50,030 bases of DNA from Alphaproteobacteria bacterium (GTDB taxonomy: Bacteria > Pseudomonadota > Alphaproteobacteria > TMED109), in the NCBI GenBank assembly GCA_022825235.1, contig JAJDYI010000024.1, forward strand, positions 1 through 50,030, read 5' to 3'. The stretch's first letter is position 1, and each line of letters opens with the position of its first letter. The translations under genes were made by a program, and so were the position numbers. This document shows, in pieces, positions 7,901 through 35,090 of the stretch. The notes under the pieces are model-generated. The model ran no database searches. It was not told the DNA's origin and was given only the letters and a program-made list of their open reading frames with translations.

Positions 7901-8254
7901 TATCGCCAAAAACGGGGCAAAAAAATTTCCCTTCCATGACGCTCCGCCCCGCGCCGGGCGGTGCCCGCAGCCCTGTCGATCGACGCTTCGGGCTCCGGCG
8001 CCCGGACCGGGAAGATCCCGCGCGCCGAAGTTTGACGATCGCGGCGCGGCTTTGTGAATATGCCGGCCCATGCTCAGGATCTTCCATATGCAGACCATCG
8101 CCCGGGAGGTACAGCCGATGCGCCCGCGCACCCGGATTCCCGCCCCGCAGACCGGCAAGCGGCTCCCCTCGTCCCTGCCGGGTCCGCGCAGCCGGCGCCG
8201 GTCGTGACCGCGGCGGCGCGCGCGGCGCGGTCGCCCGGCGCGGGGGGCGCGGCG

Positions 8255-13027: not shown

Positions 13028-16003
13028 TCACCGTTCGAGCCGAACACGGAGCCGCCGAGCCCGCTCCCGGAAGGCAGCCTCGCCACCCTCAAGGATATCG
13101 CAAACAGCCTTGCGAATTGCTGCGTTCTCCACTCCACCTGCCACGTAGCTAATCGGCGGAAGGCCACCTGACGGATGTGGGCCTGCTTCGGCCACGATGA
13201 TCTGATCCGCGTCGGTGTTGACGACGAGGTTCGCGTTGTGCGTCACAATGATCACCTGACGCTTCGCCTTGGCCGCCACGAAGAGCGCGACCAGCTCGTC
13301 GAAGACAGACTTCGGATCGAGGTTCTCTTCGGGTTGATCGATGATCAGCGGTCGATCGTCTGAATCGTCCAGCGCAAGATAGAGCAGCAGCAGCACGATA
13401 CCGCGCGTCCCGGGCGAGAGCTTGCGGATGTCAACGCCGTCATATGCAATCTCGTACCGCACGGTGATGTGGTCGGTGCCGAAAAGCCAGTGCGCGAACT
13501 GTTTCGACCATGTCCGGTATTCGACTTGCTGCGCGGGCGCATAAGGCGCATGCGACAGCAGGTCCTTGAGGTATTTGGCCATAAAGGCGGTCATGGCGGC
13601 CTGAACTTCGGCCGCCGAGCCGGATTCCCACGCCGGTTTGAGCGCCTTCATCGCGACTCCGATCAGTGCGCCGCGGCCGTAGAAGGGCCCGGTCTTGCGC
13701 CGGTCTAGGAGCTCTTCCTCCGCAACCGAGCCCCAGGCATGGATGTCGACGATCCTTCGAACCGAGAAGCTGAGCTTGTTGAGTGTGCCCGAAGACGCAG
13801 CAAGCCGAGCCATCAGTGGCGCGTAGAGTCCAGCAAGCGCATTCTGTTCGTTGATGATCGCCTCGAAGACCCTGCCGTAGGTGTCATCGCGCTCCCTCTG
13901 GAGGTCCTTCCGGCGCGTCGCAGCGCCCTGCGCATCGGTGAGCCGTTTTTCTAGGGTCTGGAGCGCAGAATTTTCCTGCGTGATGCGGCCGGTCAGTGCC
14001 GTGTACTGGTCACGAACCAGCTTATCCCTGCTGAACAGCGCTTCGAGGCGAGTCATTTCAGCAGCGATCGGGGCGAGCGGGAGCGTGGAGAGATCGGCAT
14101 TCTCGGGGATGAGCGCGACGTTCGGGTTACCGGGCGGCGGCGCATCGCCATTGAGTTTGCGGACCTCGCCATCGGCCCACTCGATATAAGCCGTCAGACT
14201 CTTGTCGACGTCGCCCTTGTAGATCAGCAGGAAGTCGTCCCACTGCTTGGCGTCGAGACCGCTGTTGCCGTGCCGAGCCTGGGTTTGGCGGAGCATTTCC
14301 GGTGCGCCCGTGGCACGCATGCTCCGAACCTCGTCCTGCAAGGCGACGAAGGTGCGGCGCTGGTTCCCGAACCTCTGGATCTTGTTTCGGAGATTCTGGG
14401 CCGCCTCGCTGAGCTTGGCGTGTCGGGCCACCTGCGCCTCGGTTCCCTTGACGACCAGCTTCGCGCGGTCCGCTGTGTAGTCCGCAATCAGTTTCTTCTT
14501 TTGCCCGACCTGCTTGGTCAGGGTGGCCAGGAGGCTCTCCTTCTCGAACTCGGAGGCGATCCGTTCGGAGATGTCGGAGATCGCCTCGGCCTCCCGCTCG
14601 CGCGCCTGCCGGAACCGTGCGGTCTGCTGGTTGCGCAGTTCTGCGAAGTCGAGCGCCCACTCGCGATCATCCTGCGAGTGCGACTCGAAGATTACGCGCT
14701 CTATCTCCTCTACCAAGCCGTCCGAGACACCTTTCGCCGAGCAAAGCTCTTCGACGAACTGCTGGGAAAGATACCGGGCACGCGGAAACGACATGTGGCC
14801 GTCGGCGTCGCTACCGTCGAGAGCGCGCGTGACCGTTGCGCCACCGCCCCAACTGAGCGTGGTGGTCGCGTTGCCGATCAACCGGCGCGCTCGCGCCAAG
14901 AACGAGGGGCTTATGCTCTCGTCAGCCTCCCAGCCCGCCGGCGTGATCGCATCGCAGCCCGCCGCGATTACGTCGGCCAAGGCCGTCTTGCCCGATCCCC
15001 GCGCGCCTATGATGGCAACAAGGCCCGGATTGAGCGCGATTTCGGGCGTGATGGCCCAATCCGCGTTCTCTATCTTGACGTGGGAAATGACTTGCGACGG
15101 CATGGCCGAGCGCGGCGGCTGCTCGCCTACGAACGCGCGGCCCTCCGGGTCGATGCAGGCTTGACGCAGGGCATCGAACACAAGGTCGCCCTTGATCCAC
15201 GAGAAGCGATTATCGGCCGGCTGGCCCACGGATTGTTGGTCATGAGCATCGCTCCCATGCAGACAGGGCTTGCACCCGTCGTATCGTGCGCGCAGCTCCT
15301 CGATTGTCGCGCCCCGCTGACCGATCCAGAACTCGCGCTGCGCTGAACTGCTCGAGAGGATGATGTGCGCGAACTTCTCGATCTCCTGGCGGACGGTCGC
15401 ATCGGCAGCCTGCCGGACCCCTGACGTGCCGTCCCCCGTGCCGCCGGCAACAGCGATCAGAATGTTTTTCTTCGCCCAATCGCTTTCGTCGATGACCTTG
15501 CGCAGTTGGTCGAAATTCACCTTGAACTGCGTCGCGCCATGTTCGAGCGCCGCGCCATCATCGGTGATCGCCGGGTCGGCGCGTTTGCCGAGCTTGATCA
15601 GTTCGTCCCGCGTGCAGTCGAAGCGGTCGTCGAAGGCATGAAATTGCAGGCGCTTGAGGATTCGTGTCACTTCAGACAGGTGGTCTGGGTCTTCGGGGCT
15701 GATTAGAAGGTGGATGTTCACAAAGCCCGACTTCGCTGCCACGTCAAGACGCAGCTCGATATTCGGGAAGAGCAGCATCACACCGGGCAATCGGCCGGTC
15801 GCCCTATATTTGAGAAATTCTTCATAGGTATCCGTAACGTAGTAGTCGGTGACGGCGATGGCCTCAATCTTGGGCGTCGCGTTTTCGAGCGTCGTAAGGT
15901 AGGCACCCCATGGATCGGCAGCGCCAAACTGGTCGTTGAGGACTGTATTGGGCGTATGGATGTGCGGCTCCCATCGGTGCCATTCTGAGCCGCGAGTTAT
16001 CAT
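13028..16003 (-). CDS. PHP-domain/SMC-like ATPase (TrlF-type defence protein)
   Basis: A 991-residue protein with a fused architecture. Residues 1-300 form a PHP-type metallo-phosphoesterase-like domain (HIHT at 14-17, further acidic and His residues, HGSDAHD near 250). An ABC/SMC-type ATPase follows, with Walker A GARGSGKT near 332, a long coiled coil from about 440 to 700, signature LSPGTRG near 860, Walker B LIIDQPEENLD near 885 and the switch His in VTHNAN. This matches what NCBI names the TrlF family AAA-like ATPase, related to nuclease-ATPase anti-phage proteins. The likely role is an ATP-driven sensor of foreign or damaged nucleic acid coupled to a PHP nuclease; this is family inference. 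The ATG at 16003 has AGGGAA six bases upstream. It lies with the RloB pair next to an integrase, all on the minus strand. Confidence 0.82.
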   Translation of the reverse strand: MITRGSEWHRWEPHIHTPNTVLNDQFGAADPWGAYLTTLENATPKIEAIAVTDYYVTDTYEEFLKYRATGRLPGVMLLFPNIELRLDVAAKSGFVNIHLLISPEDPDHLSEVTRILKRLQFHAFDDRFDCTRDELIKLGKRADPAITDDGAALEHGATQFKVNFDQLRKVIDESDWAKKNILIAVAGGTGDGTSGVRQAADATVRQEIEKFAHIILSSSSAQREFWIGQRGATIEELRARYDGCKPCLHGSDAHDQQSVGQPADNRFSWIKGDLVFDALRQACIDPEGRAFVGEQPPRSAMPSQVISHVKIENADWAITPEIALNPGLVAIIGARGSGKTALADVIAAGCDAITPAGWEADESISPSFLARARRLIGNATTTLSWGGGATVTRALDGSDADGHMSFPRARYLSQQFVEELCSAKGVSDGLVEEIERVIFESHSQDDREWALDFAELRNQQTARFRQAREREAEAISDISERIASEFEKESLLATLTKQVGQKKKLIADYTADRAKLVVKGTEAQVARHAKLSEAAQNLRNKIQRFGNQRRTFVALQDEVRSMRATGAPEMLRQTQARHGNSGLDAKQWDDFLLIYKGDVDKSLTAYIEWADGEVRKLNGDAPPPGNPNVALIPENADLSTLPLAPIAAEMTRLEALFSRDKLVRDQYTALTGRITQENSALQTLEKRLTDAQGAATRRKDLQRERDDTYGRVFEAIINEQNALAGLYAPLMARLAASSGTLNKLSFSVRRIVDIHAWGSVAEEELLDRRKTGPFYGRGALIGVAMKALKPAWESGSAAEVQAAMTAFMAKYLKDLLSHAPYAPAQQVEYRTWSKQFAHWLFGTDHITVRYEIAYDGVDIRKLSPGTRGIVLLLLYLALDDSDDRPLIIDQPEENLDPKSVFDELVALFVAAKAKRQVIIVTHNANLVVNTDADQIIVAEAGPHPSGGLPPISYVAGGVENAAIRKAVCDILEGGEAAFRERARRLRVRLER

Positions 16004-16483
16004 GCGTTCCCTACCAAGTTGTTCGAACTGCAGTCTGCGTGTCGATCATCAGCTCGCCGTCTCGATATCCCTATCGCAAGCACCACCCTCGTACTTGTCC
16101 ACCCAAATCCGAATCAAATTTCGAGCCTGTCCGTGGTAGCGCGCTTTCGCCTGTACATCCCCACCTATCCCCTCCAGTTAGCATCGGAAGCCCGATCACG
16201 AAGGAAGGTCTATCCTCTCCCTACGAACATGTCCATGACTGACAAACCGCTCGGTCCCTTGCAGGTGTCGACCACTGCTCTCTACTCACACGTTACCGAT
16301 GAGCCCACTAAGCGCCCCGCTTGAGAGTTGGACAAAGAACTGGCGTGCCTATCGCTTCGCTATAATCCCTGCGTCTTGTTGCCACCTCGTCACACTAAAT
16401 GACGCTGTTTTCTGACAGCTCAGACAGATACGATTTCGCAACTACATAATTCACCTCATTTCGCCTTTAACCAATCTCCAATT
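16004..16483. other. Low-GC intergenic region between the TrlF-type and RloB-type genes
   Basis: 480 bases, clearly AT-richer than the backbone, with no convincing open frame on either strand. It should contain the promoter of the minus-strand TrlF-type gene and the end of the RloB operon. No strong terminator hairpin was seen. Confidence 0.5.
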
Positions 16484-17143
16484 TCATTCCTTCCTTCGCA
16501 CCCTACGATCCGCTTTCCTAATTGCCTTCGTCAATTCACCAACCGTAGTAGAAGGTCGTCCATGAGGCTCCATTTCGTCCTCGCGCCGCTGGCGCAAGAC
16601 CTCTCCTCGCTCTTCTGCATCCGCAACCCGAGCCACCATTTCTTCGCAGTCCGGCACCTTCGCTCCCGCCCCATCGTATTCTGGCCGTATTCGTTGCAAC
16701 TCGCTTTGTACCTGATGCCGGTCATCAGGCCGATCGTAGTCTTGTTCGTGCAAGATCAACCAGACCTCAAAACATGGATTCGATCTAGCAACTCCTATGC
16801 CGTTGGTCTCGCAAATGTTTACCGCTTCTTCATATCTTTCGTGTTCGTCTCGATCGAATACAGCCCAAACCTCGTCCTTTTCTTCAAACAAATTCCGTCG
16901 CCGTCTTGCACCTCGTACCAATCCCTCCGATTTGGCAAACTCCAGTGCCTCTTGTGCTATTGTAATCGGGACCCCAACACCACGACGACTCTCGATTGAA
17001 ACCAGAGCACCGGTCCAAACTTTCTTTATCGCAGAAAAATATGCGGGCTCTGTATTTCTTCCTTCGCAAAATAGAATAAATCGAACCTTAGGCTCTCTTC
17101 TCGATCCTCGTCGCCTAATTCTCCCGGTCCGACGTTTTGCCAT
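16484..17143 (-). CDS. RloB-family protein (TOPRIM-like; AbiL/RloAB-type defence pair)
   Basis: A 219-residue protein. The ATG at 17143 lies one base after the stop of the upstream ATPase gene (TAA-A-ATG), so translation is probably coupled; an in-frame TTG at 17158 would overlap it. The basic N-terminus is followed by FILFCEGRNTEPAYF, with the conserved Glu-Gly-x-x-Glu of RloB proteins, then VWAVFDRDEHERYEEAV (acidic DxD-like motif) and ARSNPCFEVWLILHEQ, all RloB hallmarks (TOPRIM-like fold). RloB is usually the effector nuclease partner of an AAA ATPase, as in the lactococcal AbiL pair and the RloA-RloB pairs found within type I restriction loci. Base composition is markedly lower in GC than the surroundings, so it came by transfer. 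Confidence 0.85.
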   Translation of the reverse strand: MAKRRTGRIRRRGSRREPKVRFILFCEGRNTEPAYFSAIKKVWTGALVSIESRRGVGVPITIAQEALEFAKSEGLVRGARRRRNLFEEKDEVWAVFDRDEHERYEEAVNICETNGIGVARSNPCFEVWLILHEQDYDRPDDRHQVQSELQRIRPEYDGAGAKVPDCEEMVARVADAEERGEVLRQRREDEMEPHGRPSTTVGELTKAIRKADRRVRRKE

Positions 17144-17144
17144 T

Positions 17145-18422
17145 TTAGCAGGACTCAAGTAACGCAGCTACGGGATCATCACTGGGTACTGCTCCGTACC
17201 GTCCCTGCAGGTATCCCAACTCAACGTTGTCTCCCTTCCGCGTTCGAATGTCTGTTAGCGGATATATCTCCGTCGCTCCTTCATTATTCTTGTCCGCAAA
17301 CCAAAGCTGGTCCCGTCGCAGTACATGGGATTTCATTAGATTCGTATCATGAGTTGTCGCTATGAGTTGGGCACCCCTCTTGTTCACCTTCGAGGAACAA
17401 AACAGACGCAGTACCGCCTCACTCGCATAGGTGTGTAGGCTGGCATCTAGCTCATCAATAAAGACCGGCAGCCCTTCATCTATCGCATTGAACGTTTGAC
17501 TGAGAATGATTAGTAGTCTTCTTGTTCCTGCGCTCTCCAGGTCTAAATCGAAATGTACCACTTCCCCGCCTCTCCCACGGTGGGCAAGTTCAATTTGCAC
17601 CATTTTCTCTTCGTCGTCTGGCTTCAGTTCTATCGTCCCTCCAGAGATCCTTTCAAGCACTGCCTTGAGTTCACGATGTTTTGCTCGGAAATCTTCCGAC
17701 AATTCAGTCTCTGTTTTCTGGTATCCGATAACTCCGGTGTTGATAGATTTTAGGAACTCAATTACACGGTCATCAAGCCCATCTCCCTTGACCCGAGAGG
17801 AAGCTTCAACCCCTGGTACGGAAATTGAACCGGAGAATGCGATATCTTGAAAGTACTTATAGATACGAAACAGTTGTTCATGACCATTTTGCGCGGCAGC
17901 AGAAAGAAACAAACTATTTGAACGTGTGAGTCTAGCAATATTGTGGTTCTGCCCCTTCAGCCAGCGGCCGAACTCAAAATCCTGCGCCTCTCGTTCATAG
18001 AGTTTTCTACGGTGCGCCTTTGGGATTTCGTACAACCACTCCGACGTAAATGCCTCATCGGTTGCTTCGAATCCATAGTGATAGCGAATACCATCAAGTA
18101 TGAAGTCGATTTCGAAGCATGAAGGCTTCTCAGAGAAACGCGGGTCTAGCAAATACTCGTGACGTGGCACTCCACCGCCGGGTTCACCCTTGGTCTGCGA
18201 CCACAGGACCAACATCTTCATAGTCGATAAAGCGTTCACGAAGTTCGTCTTGCCAGATGCATTGGCGCCGTAGATCACGACGGCTGGCACGACCGCCCCG
18301 CTGTCCACAGCTTCACAGGCGATCAACCCATCGCTTTGATCCTTCAGCGATGACGCCGCGAACGACAGTTCTTGCCTCTCGCAGATAGAGAGGTGGTTCT
18401 CGACGGCGAAGCGCAATAGCAT
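17145..18422 (-). CDS. AAA-family ATPase partner of RloB (RloA/AbiLi-like)
   Basis: A 425-residue ATPase from ATG 18422, preceded by GGGGAGGG; the frame is open to 18542 but without a better start. The N-terminus LLRFAVENHLSICERQELSF is typical of the COG1106/AAA_15 group that senses phage. Walker A YGANASGKTN is at 51-60, a signature-like LESAGTRRLL near 295, Walker B GLPVFIDELDASLH near 315, and TTHDTNLM after it. These ATPases are thought to detect infection and release or activate the RloB-type nuclease. The two genes form an operon with a one-base gap and a good promoter upstream. The low GC content matches RloB and contrasts with the flanking genes. Confidence 0.85.
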   Translation of the reverse strand: MLLRFAVENHLSICERQELSFAASSLKDQSDGLIACEAVDSGAVVPAVVIYGANASGKTNFVNALSTMKMLVLWSQTKGEPGGGVPRHEYLLDPRFSEKPSCFEIDFILDGIRYHYGFEATDEAFTSEWLYEIPKAHRRKLYEREAQDFEFGRWLKGQNHNIARLTRSNSLFLSAAAQNGHEQLFRIYKYFQDIAFSGSISVPGVEASSRVKGDGLDDRVIEFLKSINTGVIGYQKTETELSEDFRAKHRELKAVLERISGGTIELKPDDEEKMVQIELAHRGRGGEVVHFDLDLESAGTRRLLIILSQTFNAIDEGLPVFIDELDASLHTYASEAVLRLFCSSKVNKRGAQLIATTHDTNLMKSHVLRRDQLWFADKNNEGATEIYPLTDIRTRKGDNVELGYLQGRYGAVPSDDPVAALLESC

Positions 18423-18456
18423 CTGATTGGCCCTCCCCTGCCCGCTAATCGGCAGA

Positions 18457-18486
18457 GTTATAGCAGTATTCGTGGAATTTGTGCAA
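18457..18486 (-). promoter_or_regulatory. Sigma-70-like promoter of the RloA/RloB operon
   Basis: On the minus strand TTGCAC (18481-18486), an 18-base spacer and TATAAC (18457-18462), about 35 bases before the ATPase start codon. Good match to the -35/-10 consensus in an AT-rich stretch. Confidence 0.5.
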
Positions 18487-18996
18487 ATTACCGCCTTTCC
18501 TGCATCCATATATGCTTCGCCGGGTGACGATTCAAGGTCCACAACCGTCAGAGCAGTCGTTTCCCATCGACTACGTCACCGCTTCACCGCCAATACGCCA
18601 CGGACCCGGCGTCTCTCGTCGCACGGTGTCGAGGGGCTGCCTCCAGGGTTTTCTCACGGCGGGCTTCCCCATCCGGCGCCCCTCCCCGATCCCGCACGGG
18701 GCTTGTAGCGCCGGTCTCAAACGCATCCTGACCGATAGCGAAATGTACCGTCCACGGGCGGGGTTTCCAGTCCAGTCCCGATTGTGCGGAACAGTTGCTC
18801 CATCCTCCCGTCTGCCGTCGCCTGTTCTGCCGGCCCCCCGCGTGCTGCGCCGTCGCCACGCAGCCGTCTCCATCCACGCGCCCTTCTCCACCGAGAGGGG
18901 AGTTTGGGCCGTGAACAGGGCGGCGGTCGGGCGTCCGGGGGAGGATGTCCGGCCGCCGTTTTCGGGAGGGTGTCCCGGCCAGGTGCTGTCCCTGCG
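18487..18996. other. Intergenic region before the DUF2493 fragment
   Basis: About 510 bases with only short shadow frames. The composition rises from AT-rich next to the defence operon to the high GC of the backbone, marking an edge of the acquired defence block. Confidence 0.45.
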
Positions 18997-19301
18997 CGCG
19001 CGTGCCCCAACAGGACATCACATCGGGGATGGGCCCCGAGCGTGCAACCGATCAGGAGATCGACATGACCTTCGATATCGACACCATCGAGACCGGCGGG
19101 CAGTCCGCCACCGCGGCCATCTGCGAGAGCGCGCAGCTCTTCGGTGCGACGCCGGAGCGTGGCGAGTTCGACACCCGCGAGGTGTGGGACCGCGACGACG
19201 CCACCGACGCGGTGAGCGAAGCGTTCCGCATCCTGGCCCAGGGCGTCGCGCCGGACGGGTTCCAGCTCGCCGACGAGCGCGAGAGCCTGCTGTGGGGTTT
19301 C
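18997..19301. repeat. Inverted duplicate of the DUF2493 promoter and 5' coding region
   Basis: This stretch is nearly identical to the reverse complement of about 49619-49923: leader GCGCGCGTG, CATCACATCGGGGATGGG, the AGGAG ribosome-binding site and the first 79 codons. The two copies differ by scattered substitutions and a small indel in the leader, so they are diverged copies, not a simple assembly duplicate. Confidence 0.85.
19065..19301 (+). pseudogene. 5' fragment of a DUF2493/YspA-type SLOG protein gene
   Basis: The ATG at 19065 has AGGAG six bases upstream and encodes MTFDIDTIET... through ERESLLWGF, closely matching residues 1-79 of the complete gene at 48935-49855. After GF the sequence changes abruptly to the antisense of the Calx-beta gene, so the SLOG domain (residues 190-306 of the full protein) is absent. 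It is the remnant of a second plasmid-type locus joined head-on to the surface-protein gene. Not functional. Confidence 0.85.
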
Positions 19302-22300
19302 ATCGTCTCCTCGCCCTCGTCATGGGCGTCGTCGAGCACCGCGACCGAAACGGTCTTGACCGTCTCGCCCGCCGCGAAGGAGAGGGTCCCGCTCGCGCCC
19401 GTGAAGTCCTCGCCCGCCTTGGCCGTCCCGTCGGCCGTCGCGTAGTCCACGCTCACCGGCCCGCCGGCCGTGCGGCTCAAGGACACCTCGAATTCCAGCA
19501 CCGCGTCCGCCGCTTCCCTCACGCGCGCGTCCGCCACGTCGATCGCCACCGGCCCCTTGATCGTCGCGCTCAGCGTGTTCGAGAGCACCTCGCCCCCGGC
19601 CGTGCAGATCGCTCCGGTGGTGCCGCAGGCACGCCCGCCCGCGAGCGTCACCGCCACGTCGTCCCATCCCGCCGGCGCGACATGGATCTCGCGGAGATCG
19701 TTCCGCCCGTCCACGCGCTTCGCCTTGCGCACGGCACCGCCCGTCACCGCGAAGGACTGGTCGCGCAGCACCTTGTAGCTAACGTCCGGCTCCTTGTTGA
19801 AGAACACACGGAAGGTGAACGTCCCCGAGTCCGGCCCGCCATGCTCCGCGGGCACGTCCTGGAAGAGGGCCGTCAACGCGTCGGACTCGACCGCCGGCGT
19901 CTCGGCCGCCACCACCGTGAACGAGACCGAGAGCGTCTGCAGCGCGTCGCCCCCGGCGTCCGATTCGCCGTAGGCCGTCGCCGTCAGCGTGTAGGCTCCG
20001 GCGGGCAACCCCCCGCCAAGCACGGCGCCGTTCTCGTTGCCGTAGAGCGACCACGGCGCCGCGTTCAGCGTGCGCGACGCGGTCTTCGCGCCCGCAAGCT
20101 CGAGACGCACGCTGCCCACGACCGCATCCGCGGCGGTCGCCACCAGCACCCCGAAGCTCCCGTTCGCCGGATCGTCGAGCGTCACCTCGCCACCATCGGC
20201 AAGCGCGCCGACCTCGGATCCCGATGAGGCGTCCACCAGCGTGAAGCCCGTGAGCGGCTCGGCCGGCGCCACCGTCTCCGGTGGCTCCACCGCGTTCCCG
20301 ATCCCAGGATGCTTCAGATCCGCATCGCGGTCCGCCGCGTCCCTGATCGTTCCGCCATTCAACGCCAGGCTGTCGGCCGCGACCGACACCGCACTCACGG
20401 TCCCGTCGTCCGACGTCGCGCTGTACGTAAACACGAGCGAGGCCGTCTCGGAACCCTCCACGTACGAAGCCTGTCTCGCGTTGCCGCCGAGCCCCAGCCC
20501 GATCGTCGGCGTGCCGCTTGCCGTCTCCACCGTCACCGGCTCGGTGAAGGCGAGCGTCACACGGACCGCATCGCCATCCGACCAGCTCCCATCCGACTCC
20601 GCCGCCAGCGTCACCTCCGTGACCGCTGGTCCGGACACCGCAACCGCGTTGCCTTCGGCGTCGACGTCCACCGCCAGAACCGCCGCCGTGCTGCGCCGTG
20701 CACCGGCCTCCGCCGCTTCCGCGGCAACCCGCACGACGTAGCGCCCGGCGCCGTCCGTCGCGACCGCAGCTGTCCACGCGCGGCCCGCTTCGGCCTCGGC
20801 CAGATCCGACACCGCCGCCGTCTCTCCGCCGACTTCGAGCGCGCTCAACTCATCTACGGCAAGCCCCGACACGGCCTCCGCGAACGACACCCGCACCTGG
20901 AATTTCTCCGAATCCGGCGCCGTATCGCCCACCGAGAGCGTCGCCGCCACCGGCCGCGTGTCCTCCGGCACCGCCGCCGTCGCCTCGCTGAGGATGGTCT
21001 CCTCGCCACCGGCTTCATCGGTAAAGGTCATCCGCACCCGCAGCGTCTTGCCGACCTCGGCCGCGGTTAGCGTGTAGCTCGCCTCCGTCGCGCCCGCGAT
21101 CTCCGCCTCCGAGCTCCCGTCCTCGGCGCTCCCGTCGTCCGAGAGCCACTGCCACACGAACTCGACTCCTTCGAGCCCGTCGGCGTCGGCGATTCCTTCC
21201 TTCGACGCCGTCAGCGTCTCGCCCACCTCAACCGTGCCGTCGATGACCGGCACACCCGTCGCAGGCGTGTTCACCGCCGCCGTCGCCTCGCTCGTCAGCG
21301 TTTCCTCGGTCTCGCCCTCGTCGGTGAAGGTCACGCGCACCCGGACCGTCTTTCCGGCCTCGGCCGCGGTGAGCGTGTAGCTCGCCTCCGTCGCGCCCGC
21401 GATCTCGGTCTCCGAGCTCCCGTCCTCGGCGCTCCCGTCGTCCGAGAGCCACTGCCATGCGAACTCGACTCCTTCGAGCCCGTCGGCGTCCTCGATCCCG
21501 TCCTTCGACGCCGTCAGCGTCTCGCCGACGCGCGGCGTCCCGGAGATCACGGGGAGTCCCGTCGGCGCGGAATTGGCGGCCGCGTCGACGAGCGCCACCG
21601 TCGTGCTCGACGTGTCTCCAGCAACCATCCCGTCGGGCAGTGTCCCGAATCCGAGCACCACGGTCTCGCCGTCTTCGTCGGCCTCGTCCGCCACGGCGCT
21701 CACCGTGACCGTCTTCACCAGATCCCCGCCGGCCTGGAAGGCCACCTCGGCCACGACCTCGAAGTCCCCGGTCTCGGCGCCGCCCCCGGGCGTCGCCGTC
21801 AGCGGCACCGTCACCGCCTTTCCGGGATCGCGGCTCAGGCTCACCGTCACTTCTGCCGCGCCGCCTTCGGTCGCCGTATACGACGGCGCGCCGAACGCGA
21901 CGCGGACCAGGCCTTCGCCGGGCGCCACGACCATGCGGTAGTCCCGCGTCGTCACCCCGTCGGCTGCCGTCACCGTCGCGACGACCAAGGTTTCCGCCGA
22001 ACCGACCGCCACCTGGTGGCCGGCGAGTTCCGTGTCGGCATCCGCATTCGGTCCGAACGCGACCGCCGCACCGCTGTCCGTGGTCTCCGCCGTCACCGTC
22101 ACCGTCGCGGCATCCGCCTCCGCGCGGTACACCAACACCCCGGCCTCGAACTCGGGATCGAGCACGGCGCCCTCCACGGTCAGCGCGCTCAGCGTCGCAT
22201 CCGTCGAAAGCGCGTTCTCGGCCGGCTTCATCAGGTACACCGGAACCGTCTCGCCCGCCTTCCACTCGGCGTCGACGTCATTCCACCCGAAGCTGTAGCC

Positions 22301-25300
22301 GTCGCCGCTCGCTTCGGTCATCGGCAGCGCGACACTCCCCACCTGGAGTGTCATCGCCTCCCAATCGTCCACACCCGACTTGAAGGCCAGATGGAGCTTC
22401 CTCCCCAAGGCCTCGTACCAGAGCCACTTCACCTCGAGCCCAGCCGTGCCCCCGACATTCGAGAACAGGTCCGCGCTCGTCGCCCCGACGTTGCCGGCCG
22501 CGTATTCCGCCACTTCCATGTCCGCCGACCACACGATGTCGCCCGGCGGCGCCGCGGGCGGCGCCGCGTCGTCGTCGAGCACCGTCACCGACGCCGCCGA
22601 CGCATCCTGCGAGAGCGTGTAGGCCTGCCCGGCCTCGAGCGTCGCGGTCACGGTCGCGTCCGCCTCGTGCGCCGAGTCATCCTCGGTCGGCACCCTGAGC
22701 TCGACCTCCCGCACACCCTCCGGGAACGACACGCGCTTCGGCGGAGAAGCGCCCAGCATCGCCCCGTCCTCGGCGATCGATACGCCCACCGTGAACGCCG
22801 GCAACACATTACCCGAGCGGGAAACCGTGAACACCGCGTCGGCGCCCTCCTGCCCGTAGGCCGACGCCGCGGCGATCGACACCTCCGGCGGCTCGTCGTT
22901 GTCGATATGGCCTTGCACCTCGGTCGAGGCGAGCAACGCATTCGAGGACACGTTCTTGAATTTGAGGGTGAACGTCTCGTCGTCGTCCGAAACGTTGTCG
23001 TCGGTGATGGGAACCTCGATCCGTTTCACTCTCTCGCCCTGCGCGAAGGTCAGCGTGCCGCTGGTCGCCGTATAGTCCGTGCCGGCCGCGGCCGTGTCGT
23101 CTCCCGTGGTCTCCGTCTCGTATTCCACCGTCACCGTCGAATCCGCGTACGGGTCGAGGTAGACGATGAACTCCATGGGACCCTCGCCCTCCGTCGCCCG
23201 CCCCGGAGTCGGATAGAGCGTCGGCTTTTCCGGAGCGCCGGCCGGCAGGATGAGCCCTGTCGCCTCGTCGTTGGCGACACTCGCGCCGGACACCTTCGTG
23301 AGCTTCAGCTTGAACGCCTCCCCTCCGGCGTCCACCGTGTGGTCGGGGATGGTCACCTTGACCGTCGCCGTCCGTTCCTCCTCGGGGCCTCTCGGGAAAA
23401 CCAGCCTGCCCGTCCTGGCGGTGTAGTCCGACCCCGCCGTAGCGGTGCCGTCCTCGGTCGCGTACTCCACTTCCACGTCGTGCCACACCGTCCCCTGCAG
23501 GGTGACGGTAAACCTCATCTCCTTCGCACCGCCCGCCACGGCCATGCGCGTCGAGGCGTCGTCCACCGAGACCGTCGCCATATCGTGGATGGCGCCAACC
23601 GCCAAACTCCTCTCGAGCACCGCTCCCGTGGCGTTGCTGAGCCTGAGCGCGAACGTCTCTATCCCAGCATAAAGCCCCTCCGAAACGTCGTCAGGGAGCA
23701 CCGGCACGGACACGCGCCATTCCCTGTCGCCTGGCGCGAAGGTGATCGTTCCCGTCAAGGCGGCGTAGTCCGACCCCGCCCTCGCCGTGCCATCGGCGCC
23801 GTCCTCGGTCGCGTAGTCCACCGTCACCGGCTCGCTGGCCGCGCGGTTCAGCTTCACGAAGAACCTGGCGCGGGAGTCCCCCGTCGGATGCTCGGTCGCC
23901 ACCGCGTCCGATACCGAGACAGTGAGATCGGTCGTCTCCTCCCCCGTCACCTTGAAGATGGGGGAAATGCCGTAGAAGGGCCTTAGGTCGTTGGGATTCT
24001 CGGCTCGTGTTTCATGATGTGGAGAAGCGGATACGAATCCAAACCAATCGCGGGGATTCCCCACATGGACGCCGTAGCCGCGATCCGCGGGTTCAAGATC
24101 ATTTCCAAGCGGGTGCGTGCCGCCAACTCCCCGCACCGCCGTACCGGTCCACACAAGCAGATCCTTGCTCGTCAGATCTTCGCTCGTGCCGTCCGAATAC
24201 GTCGCATTATTGAGGTTGAGAAACCAGAGGTAGTAATACTGGTAGTTCGGGGCCACCAGCGCCGGGTTTTGTACGCGGCCGTGTATCCCGAAGGCTACGT
24301 GGGGGGTCACATCTCCCAAAATCGGGTCGGCCGACAGCGCCTGGCTGTTCATCCAGTAGATAGGCAGGCCTCTCTTCGCGCGTGTCCAATTCGTGTACGT
24401 GTTGTCCATCGCACTCGTGCCACTGGCGAGCTTCTGGGTACTGCCCACGGCCCTGAAATCCGAGCAGTAGGGCTGGATGGCCTGGACACCCCCGGACACG
24501 CATGCGCTCTGCACGAAAGTGTTGTAGTCCGCGATGTTCTTGGACGTCGCATCACGCGTCGTCTTGGTGATGAAGTGCAGCCGGAAGCGGTCGCCCACCC
24601 CCAGACCGGCGGGCTTGAGGGGCCAGTCGTAGGGCACCTCCTTGACGACTATGCCCGTATTGACAGGCGCGGGCGGTGCTTCATTCACGTACCCGCAGGA
24701 AGTCTTCGCTTTCGCACCGATGAATATCCGGATGGTGTCCTCGGACTCAAGCCAGGCGCCATTCCCCGTCGAGCCGCGCAGGCGATAAAAGCTCGTATCG
24801 TCGATCTTCCACTTGTTCTCGCCCATCCAGTGCGCTTCGTTCGACCGCGTCCGCGCTTCGTCGTCGCTTGCAGTCAGGCTCACCGCCGCCGTGCTCACAT
24901 AGGCATCCGTCGAGGAATCGCCGGCGTCCCCGCTCACATTAGGATCCACCAGCTTCAGCCCATACTTGGTATCGGGCTGCAGGGTGACCGGGCTCGTCGG
25001 CACATACGTCGCATAGGTCAAGTAGCGCCCGCTTTCCGGATGCCACTTCTTGACGATTCGGGACTGCTGCTGACGGAGCGTCGCGAGCCGGTTTCCCGGC
25101 TCGAACCCGGCTTTGTCGTGAAGCGTCAGCACCAGGCGATCCTCCTTGTCGCCCTGCGTCGACGGCTCTTGAAACTTGATCCCGACCATACTCAGCTGCC
25201 ACCCGTCGCCCCCGACGCACGCCCCTGTCTTGAAACGCTGCCCCCATTCCTTGCTGATCATCGGCTGGTAATCGGGGCTCCCCGGATCGATGTACTTCTC

Positions 25301-25726
25301 ATCCTCGTGCCAACTCGCAATCGTGCGGACGTGGCCCTCGGCCTGCGCCACGCCTCCCGTGCCCGGCAGCAAGGGAAGGGCCAAGGACACCGAGAGCACC
25401 AGCGCCACCCCGACCGCTGCGCGGCGGGACCGCGACGCCAGCGGAGCGAGGAGGCGTCGCCATCGACGATGAGCGCGGGCAACGGCCTCGACCGCGCGGC
25501 GGGCCATCCTGCCCGGCGAGTCGGGAGCGGGGCAGATCTCGCGGGACCGCAGTCGCGCGAACGCGGCTGAAGACAGGGGGGACCCAGCGCAGGAAGGGCC
25601 GCTCCGTGCCGTTCGAGACCCGGTCACGGACGCACCTCGAGACCCGGCTCGACCTCGCTCGTACGGAGCGTCTCGATCCTGTCCGCTTTGCCCGAAGGCT
25701 CCTCCCCAAGCACCACTGGTCTTCAT
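19302..25726 (-). CDS. Giant Calx-beta/cadherin-like secreted surface protein, 3' end missing
   Basis: The ATG at 25726 has AAGGGG seven bases upstream and about 2140 residues follow before the junction. A long basic N-region precedes a hydrophobic core (VGVALVLSVSLALPLL, 105-120) and a likely cleavage after AQA129; a start at Met74 would give a more usual signal peptide. Next come a 400-residue N-terminal part, several Calx-beta repeats (for example VTVDYATEDG, SDYAALTGTITFAPG), a cadherin-like sandwich, another Calx-beta unit, two 101-residue tandem repeats (TASK-GI-DADGLEGVEF), SwmB-type segments and a last Calx-beta unit ending ...HDEGEETM. Calx-beta repeats bind calcium and mediate adhesion. 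The frame then runs into antisense DUF2493 sequence to a stop at 19052, so the natural C-terminal anchor is lost. The start codon lies 140 bases from an invertible-type site. Confidence 0.85.
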
Positions 25727-25865: not shown

Positions 25866-25897
25866 TTGCTCGCGATAACGGTATTAATCGCGAGTAA
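25866..25897. repeat. Inverted recombination-type site, left copy
   Basis: A 32-bp near-palindrome: a CTCGCGATAA arm, six-base spacer CGGTAT and a TAATCGCGAG arm, with TTG/TAA flanks. Its reverse complement equals the site at 27312-27343 with one mismatch. Arm-6-arm geometry is like Xer/dif sites. It sits between the Calx-beta start codon (25726) and the recombinase start codon (25936). Confidence 0.85.
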
Positions 25898-25935
25898 AAC
25901 GGCGGGCCGTGTTCAGGAGGTGCGGAGGCCCATCG

Positions 25936-26931
25936 ATGTTTCTCGAACCCCCGTTCGATGCTCCCCCGGCGTCCGCGCCGGCCCCCGGGCCGGCGCTGGA
26001 GCCGGAGATCGAGGAGCAGCTCGGGCGCTACGTCCGGGCAGCCCAAGGCGGGTTCAGCCGCAACACCGAGCGGGCGATCAGGTCGGACCTCGGCATCTAC
26101 GCGGAATGGTGTTCGCGGGAGGGTGTGAGGGCGCTGCCCGCGAGCGCGGAGACGGTGGCGGCGTTCGTCGACGCGATGGCCGAGACGCGCAAGCCGGCGA
26201 CGGTGCGCCGCTACGTCGCCAGCATCGCCGTCGCCCACAAGGCGATCGGGCGCGGGAAGACGCTGGAGAACCCCGTGGTGCGCCTCGCGCTCAAGCGCAT
26301 GCACCGGCGCAAGGGCCGCCGGCAGGCGCAGGCGCAAGGGCTCACCTGGCCGCTGCGCCTGCGCCTGCTCGAAGCGGCGGGCGACCGCCTCATCGACGAC
26401 CGCAACCGGGCGCTGCTCGCCGTGGCCTATGACGCCATGCTGCGCCGGGCAGAGCTTGCGGCGCTGGAAGTATCTGACTTGTTTGTAGAAATGCCCGGTG
26501 ACGCGACCCTTCTGGTGCGCCGTTCAAAGACCGACACCGAGGGTCGGGGCGAGATGGCTTACCTCGCCTGCGACACCGTGAGGCTCGTCCGCGCCTGGCT
26601 GGAGCGCAGCGGCGTCAACGACGGACGGCTGTTCCGCTCGGTGCACAAGTGCGGCGCGCTCGGCGAGGGGCTCGACCCGAGCCAGGTGCCGCGCATCTTC
26701 AAGGAGATGGCATGCCGGGCGGGACTGCCCGAGGTCCTGGTCGAGGGGCTGTCGGGACACAGCGCCCGGGTCGGCGCGGCCCAGGACATGATCGCCGCCG
26801 GCATCAAGCTGCCGGCGATCCTGCAGGCGGGGCGGTGGAAGACGACCTCGATGGTCAACCGCTACGGCGAGCGGCTGCTCGCCCGGCGCAGCGGCGCGGC
26901 GCAGCTCGCGCGGATGCAGGAGCGCACATGA
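25936..26931 (+). CDS. Xer-like tyrosine recombinase inside inverted dif-like sites
   Basis: A 331-residue protein. The ATG at 25936 has GGAGG eight bases upstream. The N-terminal part is a SAM-like core-binding domain (GGFSRNTERAIRSDLGIYAEWC). Catalytic residues are visible: Arg170/171 in AMLRRAEL, Lys in RRSKTDTEGRG, His275 and Arg278 in SGHSARVGA, Trp in AGRWKTTSM and the nucleophile Tyr310 in NRYGERL. It lacks the arm-binding domain of phage integrases and so resembles Xer and invertase-type recombinases. The gene and the small frame after it are bracketed by two inverted 32-bp sites (25866-25897, 27312-27343), the arrangement of a self-inverting DNA switch. The giant surface-protein gene starts outward from the left site, so inversion could alter its expression. 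Confidence 0.88.
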   Translation: MFLEPPFDAPPASAPAPGPALEPEIEEQLGRYVRAAQGGFSRNTERAIRSDLGIYAEWCSREGVRALPASAETVAAFVDAMAETRKPATVRRYVASIAVAHKAIGRGKTLENPVVRLALKRMHRRKGRRQAQAQGLTWPLRLRLLEAAGDRLIDDRNRALLAVAYDAMLRRAELAALEVSDLFVEMPGDATLLVRRSKTDTEGRGEMAYLACDTVRLVRAWLERSGVNDGRLFRSVHKCGALGEGLDPSQVPRIFKEMACRAGLPEVLVEGLSGHSARVGAAQDMIAAGIKLPAILQAGRWKTTSMVNRYGERLLARRSGAAQLARMQERT

Positions 26932-27212
26932 CCGTGCTCTGCTGCCCTGTCTGCGGACGGCCGCGCGAGCCCGTCTGTAATTGCAAGAATCCCGGACTGT
27001 TCATAGACGGTCGCCGTGACGGCTGCCTAGCGTGGAGTGCCGTGCGCGTCGGGTGCCGCCTGGGGATCCCGCCGGTCAAGAAGGGGGAATCCGGAAGCTC
27101 CCGCATTACTCCGATGCGAATGCGAAAAGTTGTTATCGCGAGTAAAAACTCGGCGCCCGAAATGTGCCTGCCGTTTCGCCGCCCGCTGACGCAGCACGCC
27201 GAAGCCCCGTAA
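26928..27212 (+). CDS. Small Cys-rich protein coupled to the recombinase gene
   Basis: The ATG at 26928 overlaps the recombinase stop (ATGA) and has AGGAG five bases upstream, a good sign of translation. The 94-residue product begins MTVLCCPVCGRPREPVCNCK, with a CPVC and CNC arrangement that could bind zinc, followed by a basic, less ordered tail. A half-copy of the recombination-site arm (27133-27145) lies inside the tail, so the C-terminal part may have been changed by past recombination. It could be a directionality or accessory factor for the recombinase, but no family was recognised. Confidence 0.45.
   Translation: MTVLCCPVCGRPREPVCNCKNPGLFIDGRRDGCLAWSAVRVGCRLGIPPVKKGESGSSRITPMRMRKVVIASKNSAPEMCLPFRRPLTQHAEAP
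27133..27145. repeat. Half-site of the recombinase target
   Basis: TTATCGCGAGTAA matches one arm plus flank of the two full sites (as in the left copy with one mismatch). The partner arm on the other side of a six-base spacer is not conserved, so this is a degenerate or half site inside the cassette. Confidence 0.55.
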
Positions 27213-27311
27213 ATCTTGCGTGATTTCAATGATATAGCTTTTCGTGGCGGTCCCTGACCGACCCTGGCGACGGAGGGCCCGCGGGCGGTCGCAAAAGTAA
27301 TCTTGACCTTC

Positions 27312-27343
27312 TTACTCGCGATAAATACCGTTATCGCGAGCAA
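27312..27343. repeat. Inverted recombination-type site, right copy
   Basis: A CTCGCGATAA arm, spacer ATACCG and a TTATCGCGAG arm. The spacer is the reverse complement of the left copy's spacer, so the two sites are true inverted repeats 1.4 kb apart, 31 of 32 positions agreeing. Confidence 0.85.
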
Positions 27344-28407
27344 CCCGGCTGCGTAGGACGCACGTCCGAACCGCTCCAATCGCGGCATAACTCTTTGTTT
27401 TATGGTGTCTTTCGGCCCACGGTCCCGGCCAGCGGCCCGGCGTCGCGCAAGTCCGCCCCGACCCAGGCGCGAGCAACCCGCCCGACATCCGTGAGGGAGC
27501 GATCCGCACCCTTCTCACGGCAGCGCGGCGCTCCCGAAACCCGCTATCGAGAGCCGACAGCGGGACAGCGTCGAGGAGCGATTTGGGCCGCCGCGTCCCG
27601 CGATCCGGGACCCGTCCGGCCTTTCCGCATTCGGCGTCTCGTGCGTCCATCGCCTGCCTCGCCGCGCCCCGGCGGGGCGCCTAGAAGAAGGATGCGCCTC
27701 AGGATCACGTGGGACCGGGTCGCGCCGCCGCCAGTCAGATCTTTTGATGGCGCCAATTGGAAAGGTTTATGGGCCCTCGCGGGCCCCGACCCCGCCCGGC
27801 AAACCGCCCCCGAACGATCGACCCTCCCCGGCACGCACCGCCTTCCGGTTGAACCGGCCTCGGGAGCACGCCGGCCAGTTGCCCCGCGTTCTCCCTTGGC
27901 CTCCTCCAATCCGTAGAGGTCCCAGGCTCGAAAAGAAAATGCCGTATCGCACAGAATCCATGCCCGGCCCGTATTGGCCGGGACGAGGGAGGAACGCGTG
28001 CCCGGCGCCCTTCGCTGCTTCGGCCGACCGCGAGCGCCATGACGGACCGCCCGGAGAAGTCTTGCCAGTAGCCCGCCGTCCGGGCGACGGCGGCGGCTTA
28101 CTGCACAACGCTATACGCGGGTGCAGCCGAAACGCAGGTTGAATCGAAACGGCCTGCTGGCGCAGTGCATCGACAAGGCCATCGCAAGAGTGGCGCTTTC
28201 CGACGTCTACGCGAATCATTTCGACGCAGCCGCCCTGCAGCACCGCAACAAGACCTAGCGAAGGTGCCCGCTCTGCGCCGCGAGCCGGGCGCGCCAACGA
28301 GGGTATGCCGCCGCATCTGTTCGCGCACCGAGAAGCTTGATGTAGCGTCCCTCGGGCTTGTCCTATGCGCTCTCGTTGCCGATGCGGTGCGTCAGTGTGA
28401 ACATGCC
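27344..28407. other. Long intergenic region after the recombinase cassette
   Basis: About 1.06 kb. Several open frames exist on both strands, but their products are Arg/Pro/Gly-rich, without ribosome-binding sites or recognisable motifs, and I treat them as shadows. A small hairpin GGGCCC-TCGC-GGGCCC is at 27771-27786. No RNA gene was recognised. Confidence 0.45.
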
Positions 28408-31577: not shown

Positions 31578-32471
31578 TCAGAATCCGATTTCCTCCAATT
31601 CGCGAACACTGAAATATTCCTGTCGATCTTCCTCGTTAGTTTGCCGGAGTGTGCGCTGGCTAACAGCAAGGTAGAGATCGATCAGCTGGGCGTGAGCTTT
31701 GTCTGAATATTTCCCAGGATTGTTTCGGAGCTCAGCCATATGACCCGTGAACCGCCGGAAAAAAATGAGCGGGTTGCAATATTCATCGATATCGTCCCAT
31801 CCATCCGAAAATCCCAAACGCTGGAGGCGCGCAGACACCTTAGTGTCGCATGAACCCTTGCAAACGAAATGGACAGTATGGATCACTTCGTCCTTCTCCG
31901 CAAAAATAAGGATGCCGAGTTTATTGTTCCGTACACTCTGCTTTAGCAGATCCTTTCCGCAATTTTCACATTGGAGTGGAACGTATTCCTTCAAGAGAGG
32001 ATGAATTGGGCGCAGCGACGTATGACTTACGGGCAAATGCTGAAGTAAGACGCCTGACAGCCCAATATCGTGAAATCCGGTCTCGATGCGAGCACCGTCG
32101 TAGATTTTAAATTCTTCGATTTTCATTTGAGTTCGGAGGTCCTTTAGACGTTCAATCAAGGCGGCGCTCGCGACTGTCGAGTAAAAGCCAATGAAACCAT
32201 GGGCTTCGTGTTGCGCGAGCCGATCAGTGATGTTGGTCTCATCTTCCGTTCCGACGGATTTGCCACTTTGAGCATAGTGCTTGCAGGACACGAGCCAAGT
32301 GAAGGGACGCGTTACAAGCGTTCCCTTGAGTTGCTCCTTGACCAAAAGATCGCGTCCTCCATCCGGACCACGACCTGGGGGGATTTCCACGACGAGGTCT
32401 TGAGCGACAAGGTAGTCACGGCAAAACGACTCCCACGCGTCACTATTATCTATTTCGCGGTAGTCTATCAT
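31578..32471 (-). CDS. Mrr-like restriction endonuclease with a zinc-binding C-terminal part
   Basis: A 297-residue protein. The N-terminal 70 residues match an Mrr-type PD-(D/E)XK fold: AWESFCRDYL helix, GRGPDGGRDLLV with the catalytic Asp41, and WLVSCKH with Lys64 (Ser-Cys-Lys in place of Glu-x-Lys). ITDRLAQHEAHGFIGFYST continues the Mrr pattern. After residue 160, CENC and CKGSC can bind zinc. The C-terminus is all helical. Mrr-like proteins cut modified or foreign DNA. GC content is among the lowest of the window. It is downstream of the restriction operon on the same strand but 146 bases from it, and may be an independent defence gene. Confidence 0.72.
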   Translation of the reverse strand: MIDYREIDNSDAWESFCRDYLVAQDLVVEIPPGRGPDGGRDLLVKEQLKGTLVTRPFTWLVSCKHYAQSGKSVGTEDETNITDRLAQHEAHGFIGFYSTVASAALIERLKDLRTQMKIEEFKIYDGARIETGFHDIGLSGVLLQHLPVSHTSLRPIHPLLKEYVPLQCENCGKDLLKQSVRNNKLGILIFAEKDEVIHTVHFVCKGSCDTKVSARLQRLGFSDGWDDIDEYCNPLIFFRRFTGHMAELRNNPGKYSDKAHAQLIDLYLAVSQRTLRQTNEEDRQEYFSVRELEEIGF

Positions 32472-32617
32472 TGGTTTTTCAGACCTTAGTTGTCATGAGT
32501 AGGCCACAAGGCGAGAGAGTTGCTGAAGTCTGACTCAACGAGGTTGGGGGCTAACTCTTCCCGGGATCGATGAGGACTGCGTGATCGCTGGGCGTGTCGT
32601 GAGGATGTCGATGTCCA

Positions 32618-33478
32618 TCAGTTGTCAGTTATCATGCTATCGCGCTGAAGCATCGTTTGTATTTCAACTACGCTGAACGGCGGATCGCGACGATGGGCGA
32701 CTGCGTGGCAGTTCGGGCAAAGAGGAACCAGATCGCGGGCAGGGTCGACTACTGTGCCCGGATTGAGCGCGGAAACCGGGGTAATATGATGCACTTCGAT
32801 GAAGCCCGCCGCCGCTTCTCCATACCGAACTCCAAAATCCAGCCCGCACGCCTGGCAATGGCTACCCCAGATCGCGATGGCAGCTGCCCGGTTGCGTCGA
32901 TCACGTTCGTAACGCGTAACCCGCTGGATACTTGCTCCGCCTTCTTCGTAGCCGCTCGCGCCCGGAAGGTCTCCGTCATCGTCATCCTGGACAGGCAGCA
33001 GAGCAAGAATGGCTGCGGCAAATCTGCCCGTCCAGGCCACGGCAGCGTCAAAGTCCGGACCGGTGCCGTCGACCCCAGGTTCCAAGCGGCTCCGCAATGA
33101 AATGGACACCTGTTTCCAGTGCGCTGGCCAGTCCATCCCGTTGGCAGGATCGACAGGCGAGCCGTTAACCTGAAAGTGGAGCGTAGCGCCCCGACTTGAA
33201 CACTCGCCAAGGATTGCCCGGAAGGCTGAGCGTCCGATGTTGTCTGCGGCGCCCATGGCAGAAACCAGTTCGCCCGCAAACCTCCCGGGCTCGAAGTCTA
33301 TGACGACACTGCGCCACCGAAGCGTGGTGCGAATGGCAAAAGCATGATCTGCTGGATGACCCGAGGGTCGAAGCGTGTACCAGTGGTTGGCACGCTCGTC
33401 CACTCCGTGACTCACGTCGCAGGCAAGTCCCGTCTCGCTGAGAACATGCAGGGCGAGGTGTTGCGGTTGGGGGTCCAC
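32618..33478 (-). CDS. HNH endonuclease, last gene of the EcoRII/GHKL operon
   Basis: A 286-residue protein from a GTG at 33478, seven bases after the GHKL stop, with GGAG upstream. The C-terminal 100 residues are a typical HNH nuclease: CQACGLDFG, FIEVHHITPVSAL with the catalytic His pair, and DLVPLCPNCHAVAHR, where two CxxC pairs bind zinc. The N-terminal 160 residues form a separate domain (HWYTLRPSGHPADHAFAIRTTLRWRSVVIDFEPG) that I know only as a companion of such nucleases. By position it is a second nuclease of the operon, beside the EcoRII-type enzyme. It likely nicks or cuts DNA under control of the GHKL/SNF2 proteins; that control is inference. Confidence 0.82.
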   Translation of the reverse strand: MDPQPQHLALHVLSETGLACDVSHGVDERANHWYTLRPSGHPADHAFAIRTTLRWRSVVIDFEPGRFAGELVSAMGAADNIGRSAFRAILGECSSRGATLHFQVNGSPVDPANGMDWPAHWKQVSISLRSRLEPGVDGTGPDFDAAVAWTGRFAAAILALLPVQDDDDGDLPGASGYEEGGASIQRVTRYERDRRNRAAAIAIWGSHCQACGLDFGVRYGEAAAGFIEVHHITPVSALNPGTVVDPARDLVPLCPNCHAVAHRRDPPFSVVEIQTMLQRDSMITDN

Positions 33479-33485
33479 TCGCTAT

Positions 33486-35090
33486 CTACTCCAGGTCGGA
33501 ATCTGGCGGATCGGGAAGCCCTTCGACGAGCTTTCTCAGTATCCGGGAAACCTCGTAGCGCACATCGCCAAACAGCTCGATCGTGTCGTCGGAGGTGGCA
33601 CTCAGTTCCGCAACGCAGAGACCCCAGAGGAGCGAGTCCAGTCCCTGCACCGTTACGCTGTCGTTGAAATTGGGAATATAGACCTTGTGGTAATATGGAT
33701 GGTTCGTGTTGATCCGCACGGCCTTGTGCATCTCGATAATGGCCGGTTCGAACAGGAGGCCGTCGGTGATGTCGTCGACGGGCTGCACATGTACCTGTCC
33801 CGGGGCTTCTGCGGAACCAACCGGAAGCTTGAGGGTCACGGTGCCCTGCCTGTTGGTCACCTCAACTTCACCGGTCGCCGGGTTCGTGACAGAAACTTTC
33901 GGGCCGCCGACCTGAGACTCCTTGTTCGCAATTGCCCGGTTGGATTCCTGATGACCGCCCTTTTTGCCCTTCCGCGATATGTCGCTTGCCCGTCCCTTGC
34001 GGTAACGGCGATCGGCTTCCCGGCGTGGCGCCGTAAGGAACTGTTCGCGCAGCCATCTCAGCAGGGTGTCGTCGAGGACAATCTGTGACTTGCGGATATC
34101 GAGCTGAAGCGCACTGTCCAGATGGTGGTCGAACGAGAATTCTATCCTGAGAAGGTTCGAGTGAGGTTCCTTGCGGAACATACCGAGCCAGGTGCCGGCG
34201 TGGATCAGCCGTTGTTCCCGGTAGATGTAGATGCCCTGCATGTCGGGGGAGATCCGGGCGGCATCGGCCTGTTCGTCGTCGGGAAACTCTTCACGGCGTG
34301 GAATGATGTATGCGCGGATCGTGAATTGAGCGCGCGTTCCGTTCTCCAGTTCGACCTCTTTGGTCGCGTCCGCTACCAGTTCGGAAAGACCTTTCAGGAA
34401 GGGATCCCACGGGCTGAGGGGTGCGCCATTAAGGCGGATGCGGATGTTCGGTGCCCGTTGGTCCTTCGGATCGAGGAAGCGCTGGAAGGTCATGGCCAAG
34501 TGCTGACCCAGGGTCTCGCAGCGCGACTTGAAGGCACGCTTAGCGTGAGAACCGGTCGGGTTGCTGTAGTTTCGCAGCAGACGGTCCACCCTTGTCCACA
34601 ATACAACTGTCCCGGCCCGCTCGGGCGCGGTTTGGTTCAGGTGTTCCGCAGCCTCCTGGTCTGGTTCATCGGAGACTTGGAGGAGCCACTCGCTCTGCTC
34701 GGCAACAAAGTCCAGATCCCATGTCGCCATCGTTGCCGGGCCGTCGGGCGGACGGGATATCACGGAGAGACGGCGGCACCATGCGGTAGATGCCGTCTTG
34801 AGCCCAAGTCCGAACTTTCCGAGGCTGGCTGGATCGGGCCGCTGTGGCGATCCGTAAGTCATTGCCTGTACAAGCTCGTCGCGGTCCATGCCACAGCCGT
34901 TGTCTGCGATGGACAGCCTGACTTCACCGCGAAAATCGAGCTGCACCCTGACATCGACGACCGTAGCATCAGCGGCAATTGAGTTGTCGATGAGATCCGC
35001 GACGGATGTCTCGAAACTGTATCCTGTGTCCCGGAGGCCTTCAGTCGTACGGCCTGGGTCTGGAATTACCGCAATGGCGGTTTCGGGCAT
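33486..35090 (-). CDS. GHKL ATPase of the MORC/MutL-like restriction-associated type
   Basis: A 534-residue protein from ATG 35090 with GTGGAG upstream. The Bergerat ATP-binding fold is complete: N-box DLIDNS (32-37), G1 ADNGCGM (62-68) and lid GKFGLGLKTAS (91-101), then a transducer-like half and a charged linker (RRYRKGRASDISRKGKKGG). Prokaryotic GHKL ATPases of this kind, related to eukaryotic MORC proteins, were described in restriction operons together with SNF2 helicases and cytosine methylases. The neighbours here fit that exactly. They may act as ATP-gated clamps on target DNA. The gene starts 18 bases after the EcoRII-N-like gene and is followed at once by the HNH gene. Confidence 0.85.
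   Translation of the reverse strand: MPETAIAVIPDPGRTTEGLRDTGYSFETSVADLIDNSIAADATVVDVRVQLDFRGEVRLSIADNGCGMDRDELVQAMTYGSPQRPDPASLGKFGLGLKTASTAWCRRLSVISRPPDGPATMATWDLDFVAEQSEWLLQVSDEPDQEAAEHLNQTAPERAGTVVLWTRVDRLLRNYSNPTGSHAKRAFKSRCETLGQHLAMTFQRFLDPKDQRAPNIRIRLNGAPLSPWDPFLKGLSELVADATKEVELENGTRAQFTIRAYIIPRREEFPDDEQADAARISPDMQGIYIYREQRLIHAGTWLGMFRKEPHSNLLRIEFSFDHHLDSALQLDIRKSQIVLDDTLLRWLREQFLTAPRREADRRYRKGRASDISRKGKKGGHQESNRAIANKESQVGGPKVSVTNPATGEVEVTNRQGTVTLKLPVGSAEAPGQVHVQPVDDITDGLLFEPAIIEMHKAVRINTNHPYYHKVYIPNFNDSVTVQGLDSLLWGLCVAELSATSDDTIELFGDVRYEVSRILRKLVEGLPDPPDSDLE

Follow-up and report, generated by a model that had tools for sequence, protein, structure and literature searches.

A 1.4-kb segment in the stretch of alphaproteobacterial DNA analysed here (the window, 50,030 nucleotides) is probably a phase-variation switch in which a Cre-family recombinase inverts a promoter and thereby turns surface proteins on or off. 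The segment encloses the recombinase gene and adjoins the presumed target, a giant surface-protein gene on the minus strand (19052–25726) with Calx-beta repeats (1.1e-74), Ig-like sequence and a hydrophobic signal-like stretch, for which position 25726 is one of several possible starts. Judging from the geometry of the locus and the matching of the spacers, the recombinase would bind two inverted lox-like sites and invert the DNA between them. At the distal end of the segment would lie the −35 element of an outward-facing promoter, with a −10-like part composed of the spacer and the adjoining outer arm. In the assembled orientation this promoter would face away from the Calx-beta gene (OFF), and inversion would place it upstream of the gene and facing it (ON). 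The module also appears to have moved between lineages and to have become linked with surface genes of several unrelated kinds.

The proximal site (25866–25897, with 13-bp arms around the spacer CGGTAT) and the distal site (27312–27343, spacer ATACCG) are inverted copies of each other, identical at 31 of 32 positions. A degenerate search of the window with three mismatches allowed returned these two sites only, against an expectation of 0.00 from 100 shuffles, and the core of the site is confined to the same two places in the whole genome. The pair and its reverse-complementary spacers, both described in the initial annotation, were thus borne out, and the arms, given there as 10-6-10, are better described by a 13-6-13 architecture with an asymmetric 6-bp spacer. 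Homologues of the proximal site were found at 12 other loci. Inverted sites with reverse-complement spacers are recombined by tyrosine recombinases to give inversion and not excision. Because the window spacers are mutual reverse complements, recombination between the two sites is expected to invert the segment without excising it.

The recombinase (25936–26931, plus strand, 331 aa) matches the Phage_integrase profile (4.5e-14), has an intact frame and contains all six residues of the catalytic set R-K-H-R-W-Y. Its best relatives among solved structures are without exception P1 Cre or engineered forms of it (phmmer 2e-26, residues 26–329; about 29% identity to P1 Cre), and XerD is the only other match among them (6e-6). 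The enzyme had been called Xer-like, yet membership of XerC or XerD was rejected, with scores of 35 and 31 bits against curated cut-offs of 335 and 330, about ten times too low. Likewise, a serine invertase of the Hin/Gin type was rejected, as Phage_integrase was the only domain found and no serine recombinase (resolvase) domain was present. By its sequence and the structure of its sites, the protein is therefore assigned to the Cre family. The ATG at 25936 replaces the GTG at 25909 as the preferred start, since homologues open with MFLEPPF or MYLEPPF. An apparent internal TGA in the recombinases of L002, L008 and L020 was discounted because it lies upstream of this conserved start, and those enzymes are intact. 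The small Cys-rich frame (26928–27212), regarded earlier as coupled to the recombinase, is an open frame, but it has homologues at none of the other loci and probably stands outside the system.

Within the window segment, the −35-like hexamer TTGACC (27303–27308, plus strand) is directed outward across the distal site, with the Calx-beta gene behind it, and is followed after 17 nt by the −10-like TACCGT (27326–27331, plus strand), which is made of spacer and outer arm. The two hexamers form a putative promoter, and the same −10-like hexamer would arise on the proximal side once the segment inverts. Repeat search also disclosed a single internal half-site, TTATCGCGAGTAA, at 27133–27145, which could be an operator or a bias element. 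A half-site is also present about 135 bp past the recombinase stop at L006, L017, L010, L011, L024 and L025. Neither the half-site nor the −35-like hexamer figured in the initial annotation, and both are conserved at related loci. A candidate IHF site occupies the same position inside the segment in six loci, with one or two mismatches from the consensus and per-locus p values of 0.02–0.47, and is a hint only.

Inverted site pairs were found at 12 loci in eight genomes, and only in genomes that encode the enzyme. These loci are the window and L006 (contig C33) in the source genome G000, L017 (G389), L010 (G425), L011 and L028 (G411), L024 (G410), L025 (G412), L046 (C11) and L018 (C55) in G304, and L059 and L060 (G420). 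The layout of a recombinase-driven surface switch, proposed from the window alone, is supported by this comparison: profile search identified domains of surface or secreted proteins in the gene outside the proximal site at ten of the 12 loci, and two more were recognised by inspection. Calx-beta domains, the type singled out in the initial annotation, recur at several loci beside such sites, together with unrelated surface types. The neighbour in the window is Calx-beta; that of L006 is a large, divergently oriented gene with SWM, Calx-beta and fn3 domains. Calx-beta/SWM is found at L010, fn3/He_PIG/SWM at L011, choice-of-anchor R at L024, Calx-beta/fn3 at L025 and L046, fn3/He_PIG at L018, PPC/cadherin at L060 and a Slam-dependent TbpB-like lipoprotein at L059. 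Inspection revealed at L028 a start resembling that of a lipoprotein, with no profile matched, and at L017 a short fragment with a signal peptide, which runs into a TrwC relaxase frame. These families are unrelated and of at least three types (fibronectin/Calx-beta, PPC/cadherin and Slam lipoprotein); the pairing of switch and surface gene thus arose more than once. Next to the proximal site, most loci have in common a short leader containing a GGAGG-like motif, after which the sequences diverge.

Several regularities across the loci point to inversion of a promoter. Although spacers vary between loci, the two spacers of a pair are exact reverse complements at 11 of the 12 loci, compared with a mean of 2.4 and a highest value of 9 when the pairs were shuffled 100,000 times (permutation P < 1e-5). 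The idea that flipping connects or disconnects a promoter gained a concrete candidate element, with TTGAC[ACG] standing inside the segment 15–17 nt before the spacer at all 13 distal sites, including one unpaired end, and no TTGAC within 60 bp of the proximal sites. After inversion, the predicted read toward the neighbouring gene is TTGACA-17-GACAGT or similar, and the final T of this −10 is supplied by the proximal outer arm, in which all 12 paired loci have T at that position. Several observations count against the switch, among them the uniform orientation of the assembled loci and the possible 3′ truncation of the Calx-beta gene in the window. The −10-like match is weak, usually GACAGT; the pair on contig C232 of G420, the only one with mismatched spacers, may be locked; and at L013 and L014, whose recombinases belong to the same clade, such sites are missing. 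The recombinase genes of these two loci diverge from the gene of a GAF-type sensor, and the recombinase at 8001 is preceded by a different conserved AT-rich intergenic stretch, possibly another type of target.

The assembled loci share a single orientation in which the promoter-like end faces away from the surface gene, and a composite TTGAC-site search of 385 genomes of the class recovered no ON-oriented locus. As such uniformity is improbable for an even switch, it implies a strong OFF bias, rare flipping or flipping that has ceased. The same search matched enzyme genomes only, apart from two single matches (G383 and G142) whose spacers are unrelated and which look like chance. At most loci only about 40–50 bp of DNA lie upstream of the recombinase inside the segment, so its promoter would have to overlap the site or lie beyond it and would differ between orientations, which, as a speculation, could bias the switch. 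Combining these points, a more specific version can be put forward tentatively, though it is rather doubtful as a whole: a horizontally moving, Cre-powered module that is OFF-biased and self-reverting, borrows a different recombinase promoter in each orientation and has repeatedly become attached to unrelated surface genes, for giant adhesin-like proteins, PPC-cadherin proteins and Slam lipoproteins.

The segment and its enzyme are not always found together. In G304, the enzyme gene lacks flanking sites, and two site pairs lie elsewhere, 334 and 344 bp apart, enclosing short recombinase-free segments with the same promoter-like end, each adjoining a surface gene. On contig C179 of G420, the enzyme is encoded just outside a 355-bp segment. 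By analogy, this trans layout is a fimS-like geometry that separates the presumed switch from the recombinase gene, a separation not predicted if the unit were a transposon.

An inversion with two targets, in which the promoter alternates between the giant proximal protein and a distal gene and the latter is ON in the assembled state, is unlikely. It draws on the conservation of the distal outer flank (27344–27500 in the window, from an alignment of seven loci) and on L006, L017 and L024, at which a gene resembling a beta-barrel outer-membrane protein follows some 800 bp past the distal site, in the direction in which the promoter-like end points. However, this distance is long, and the kind of distal gene varies at other loci, being on the opposite strand in the window and LysR-like at C55 of G304. 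Moreover, in six of the 12 paired loci the distal outer arm has C instead of T at the last −10 position, which weakens the −10 read in that direction. A structured RNA in the conserved distal flank was considered and rejected, the covariation term being unfavourable and no convincing structure emerging.

It is very unlikely that the cassette is a small mobile element, that is, a recombinase with terminal inverted repeats lying near surface genes by chance, with nothing being switched. Its patchy distribution and horizontal movement, the lack of the enzyme in the 27 other family genomes and the two non-sister copies in one genome (G000) would suit such an element. The initial annotation had itself allowed that the recombinase might never adjoin surface genes in homologues and that the sites might only mark element ends. 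Both points were checked, with the opposite outcome: related cassettes do adjoin surface genes, and homology between copies does not stop at the repeats. In an alignment of seven loci it extends about 150 bp past the distal site, and L006, L017 and L024 share more than 1.5 kb there. The sites are therefore not element ends, and an insertion sequence or transposon bounded by the repeats was rejected. The segments of about 340 bp that bear the same ends without a recombinase, the matching of spacers within loci and the surface-gene neighbours at nearly every locus argue further against it.

Highly improbable is an idle former dimer-resolution system of the lox-cre type that arrived with plasmid DNA and left the inverted pairs as relics: the wider family does occur as single genes on alphaproteobacterial plasmids, and an Azospirillum relative with 54% identity has one site-like palindrome upstream, but all 12 pairs have the inverted arrangement, which is wrong for resolution, spacers diverge between loci yet stay matched within pairs, the enzymes are intact, and the linkage to surface genes would be left without explanation. 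The plasmid relatives (37–50% identity), several of them near replication, partition or toxin-antitoxin genes, have contexts consistent with dimer resolution, and no palindromic site pair was found near the six examined. The viral contigs searched contained no relative of the enzyme, and the phages searched gave distant P1-Cre-like matches only (about 29–30%).

The proposed promoter-inversion switch can be compared with several characterised systems. In the H segment of Salmonella, which governs flagellar phase variation, the gene for the recombinase Hin and an outward promoter lie inside the invertible segment, with the target surface gene immediately beyond one of the sites. The layout of the window is alike, with the enzyme inside its own segment and a surface gene beside one site, but Hin is a serine recombinase acting on hix sites with a Fis-bound enhancer, whereas the window has a Cre-like tyrosine recombinase and 13-6-13 sites. 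The fimS element of E. coli, inverted by FimB and FimE, shares a tyrosine recombinase and a short invertible promoter segment, and its geometry is matched by the G304 segments of about 340 bp with the enzyme elsewhere; an involvement of IHF is no more than a hint at the loci described here. FimB and FimE are not Cre-like and the fim repeats are short, while most loci described here hold the enzyme inside the segment. Phage P1 Cre/loxP has in common the enzyme family, the catalytic residues and sites whose 13-bp arms flank an asymmetric spacer, but loxP has an 8-bp spacer and is present in a single copy on P1 for dimer resolution, in contrast to the 6-bp spacers and inverted chromosomal pairs found here. 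By analogy, the proposed switch would work like the Hin and fimS inversion switches while falling outside both enzyme families. In Clostridioides difficile, site-specific inversion is the ON/OFF device for CwpV, the largest cell-wall surface protein of that organism (PMC2784873). The principle proposed here is the same, with a different phylum, recombinase and sites.

Literature searches of partial coverage found no description of such a Cre-family inversion switch. Few DNA tools are used more than Cre, whose relatives have been described chiefly from the resolution of plasmid dimers. If the proposed switch is real, the Cre family would have a regulatory role in chromosomes, through a natural inversion switch beside surface proteins, and uncultured bacteria would have a way to vary very large surface proteins. 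The loci also supply a natural set of lox-like sites with differing spacers and arms.

The source genome (3.85 Mb in 87 contigs) holds, besides the window, a second copy on contig C33 (L006) with a 71% identical enzyme flanked by inverted sites. Elsewhere in the class the enzyme occurs in scattered genomes, one of them a Silicimonas MAG. Phylogenetic analysis gathered the site-bearing loci into a single supported group (100/99) that also includes the siteless L013 and L014. The two copies in G000 are not sisters, and the one on C33 nests among copies from another family with 86–91% identity. These non-sister copies, with the patchy distribution, indicate horizontal movement of the module between lineages. 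The same genome also contains a 47-codon recombinase remnant, 70% identical, on contig C52 (L003, 1501–1641).

Some further features of the surface genes were observed. In the window, the frame of the Calx-beta gene ends, after the last repeat, in unrelated residues without a recognisable domain (19052–19310), and its 3′ end may be truncated, replaced or lost. At L017 (56–1276) the surface gene stops after a short N-terminal part and continues in frame into TrwC-relaxase-like sequence, which could be a rearrangement or a misassembly. Tetranucleotide tandem repeats, (GCCT)14 at L011, (GCCT)17 at L025 and (GCCA)8 at L018, lie in the surface-gene leader or early reading region about 100 bp from the proximal site and are a possible second, slippage-type phase-variation device at these loci. 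In G304, the distal flanks of L047 (contig C67, 9233–9831) and L046 (C11) are near-identical, and C67 breaks off soon past the site, where its sequence is similar to the C-terminal portion of the surface protein on C11; it may be a partial duplicate or a rearranged copy. The surroundings of the window cassette look like a variable region rich in defence genes, with AAA_21/SMC-like ATPases, an Mrr-like nuclease domain and a HATPase_c_3 protein distributed on both sides (13028–18542 and 31578–35090).
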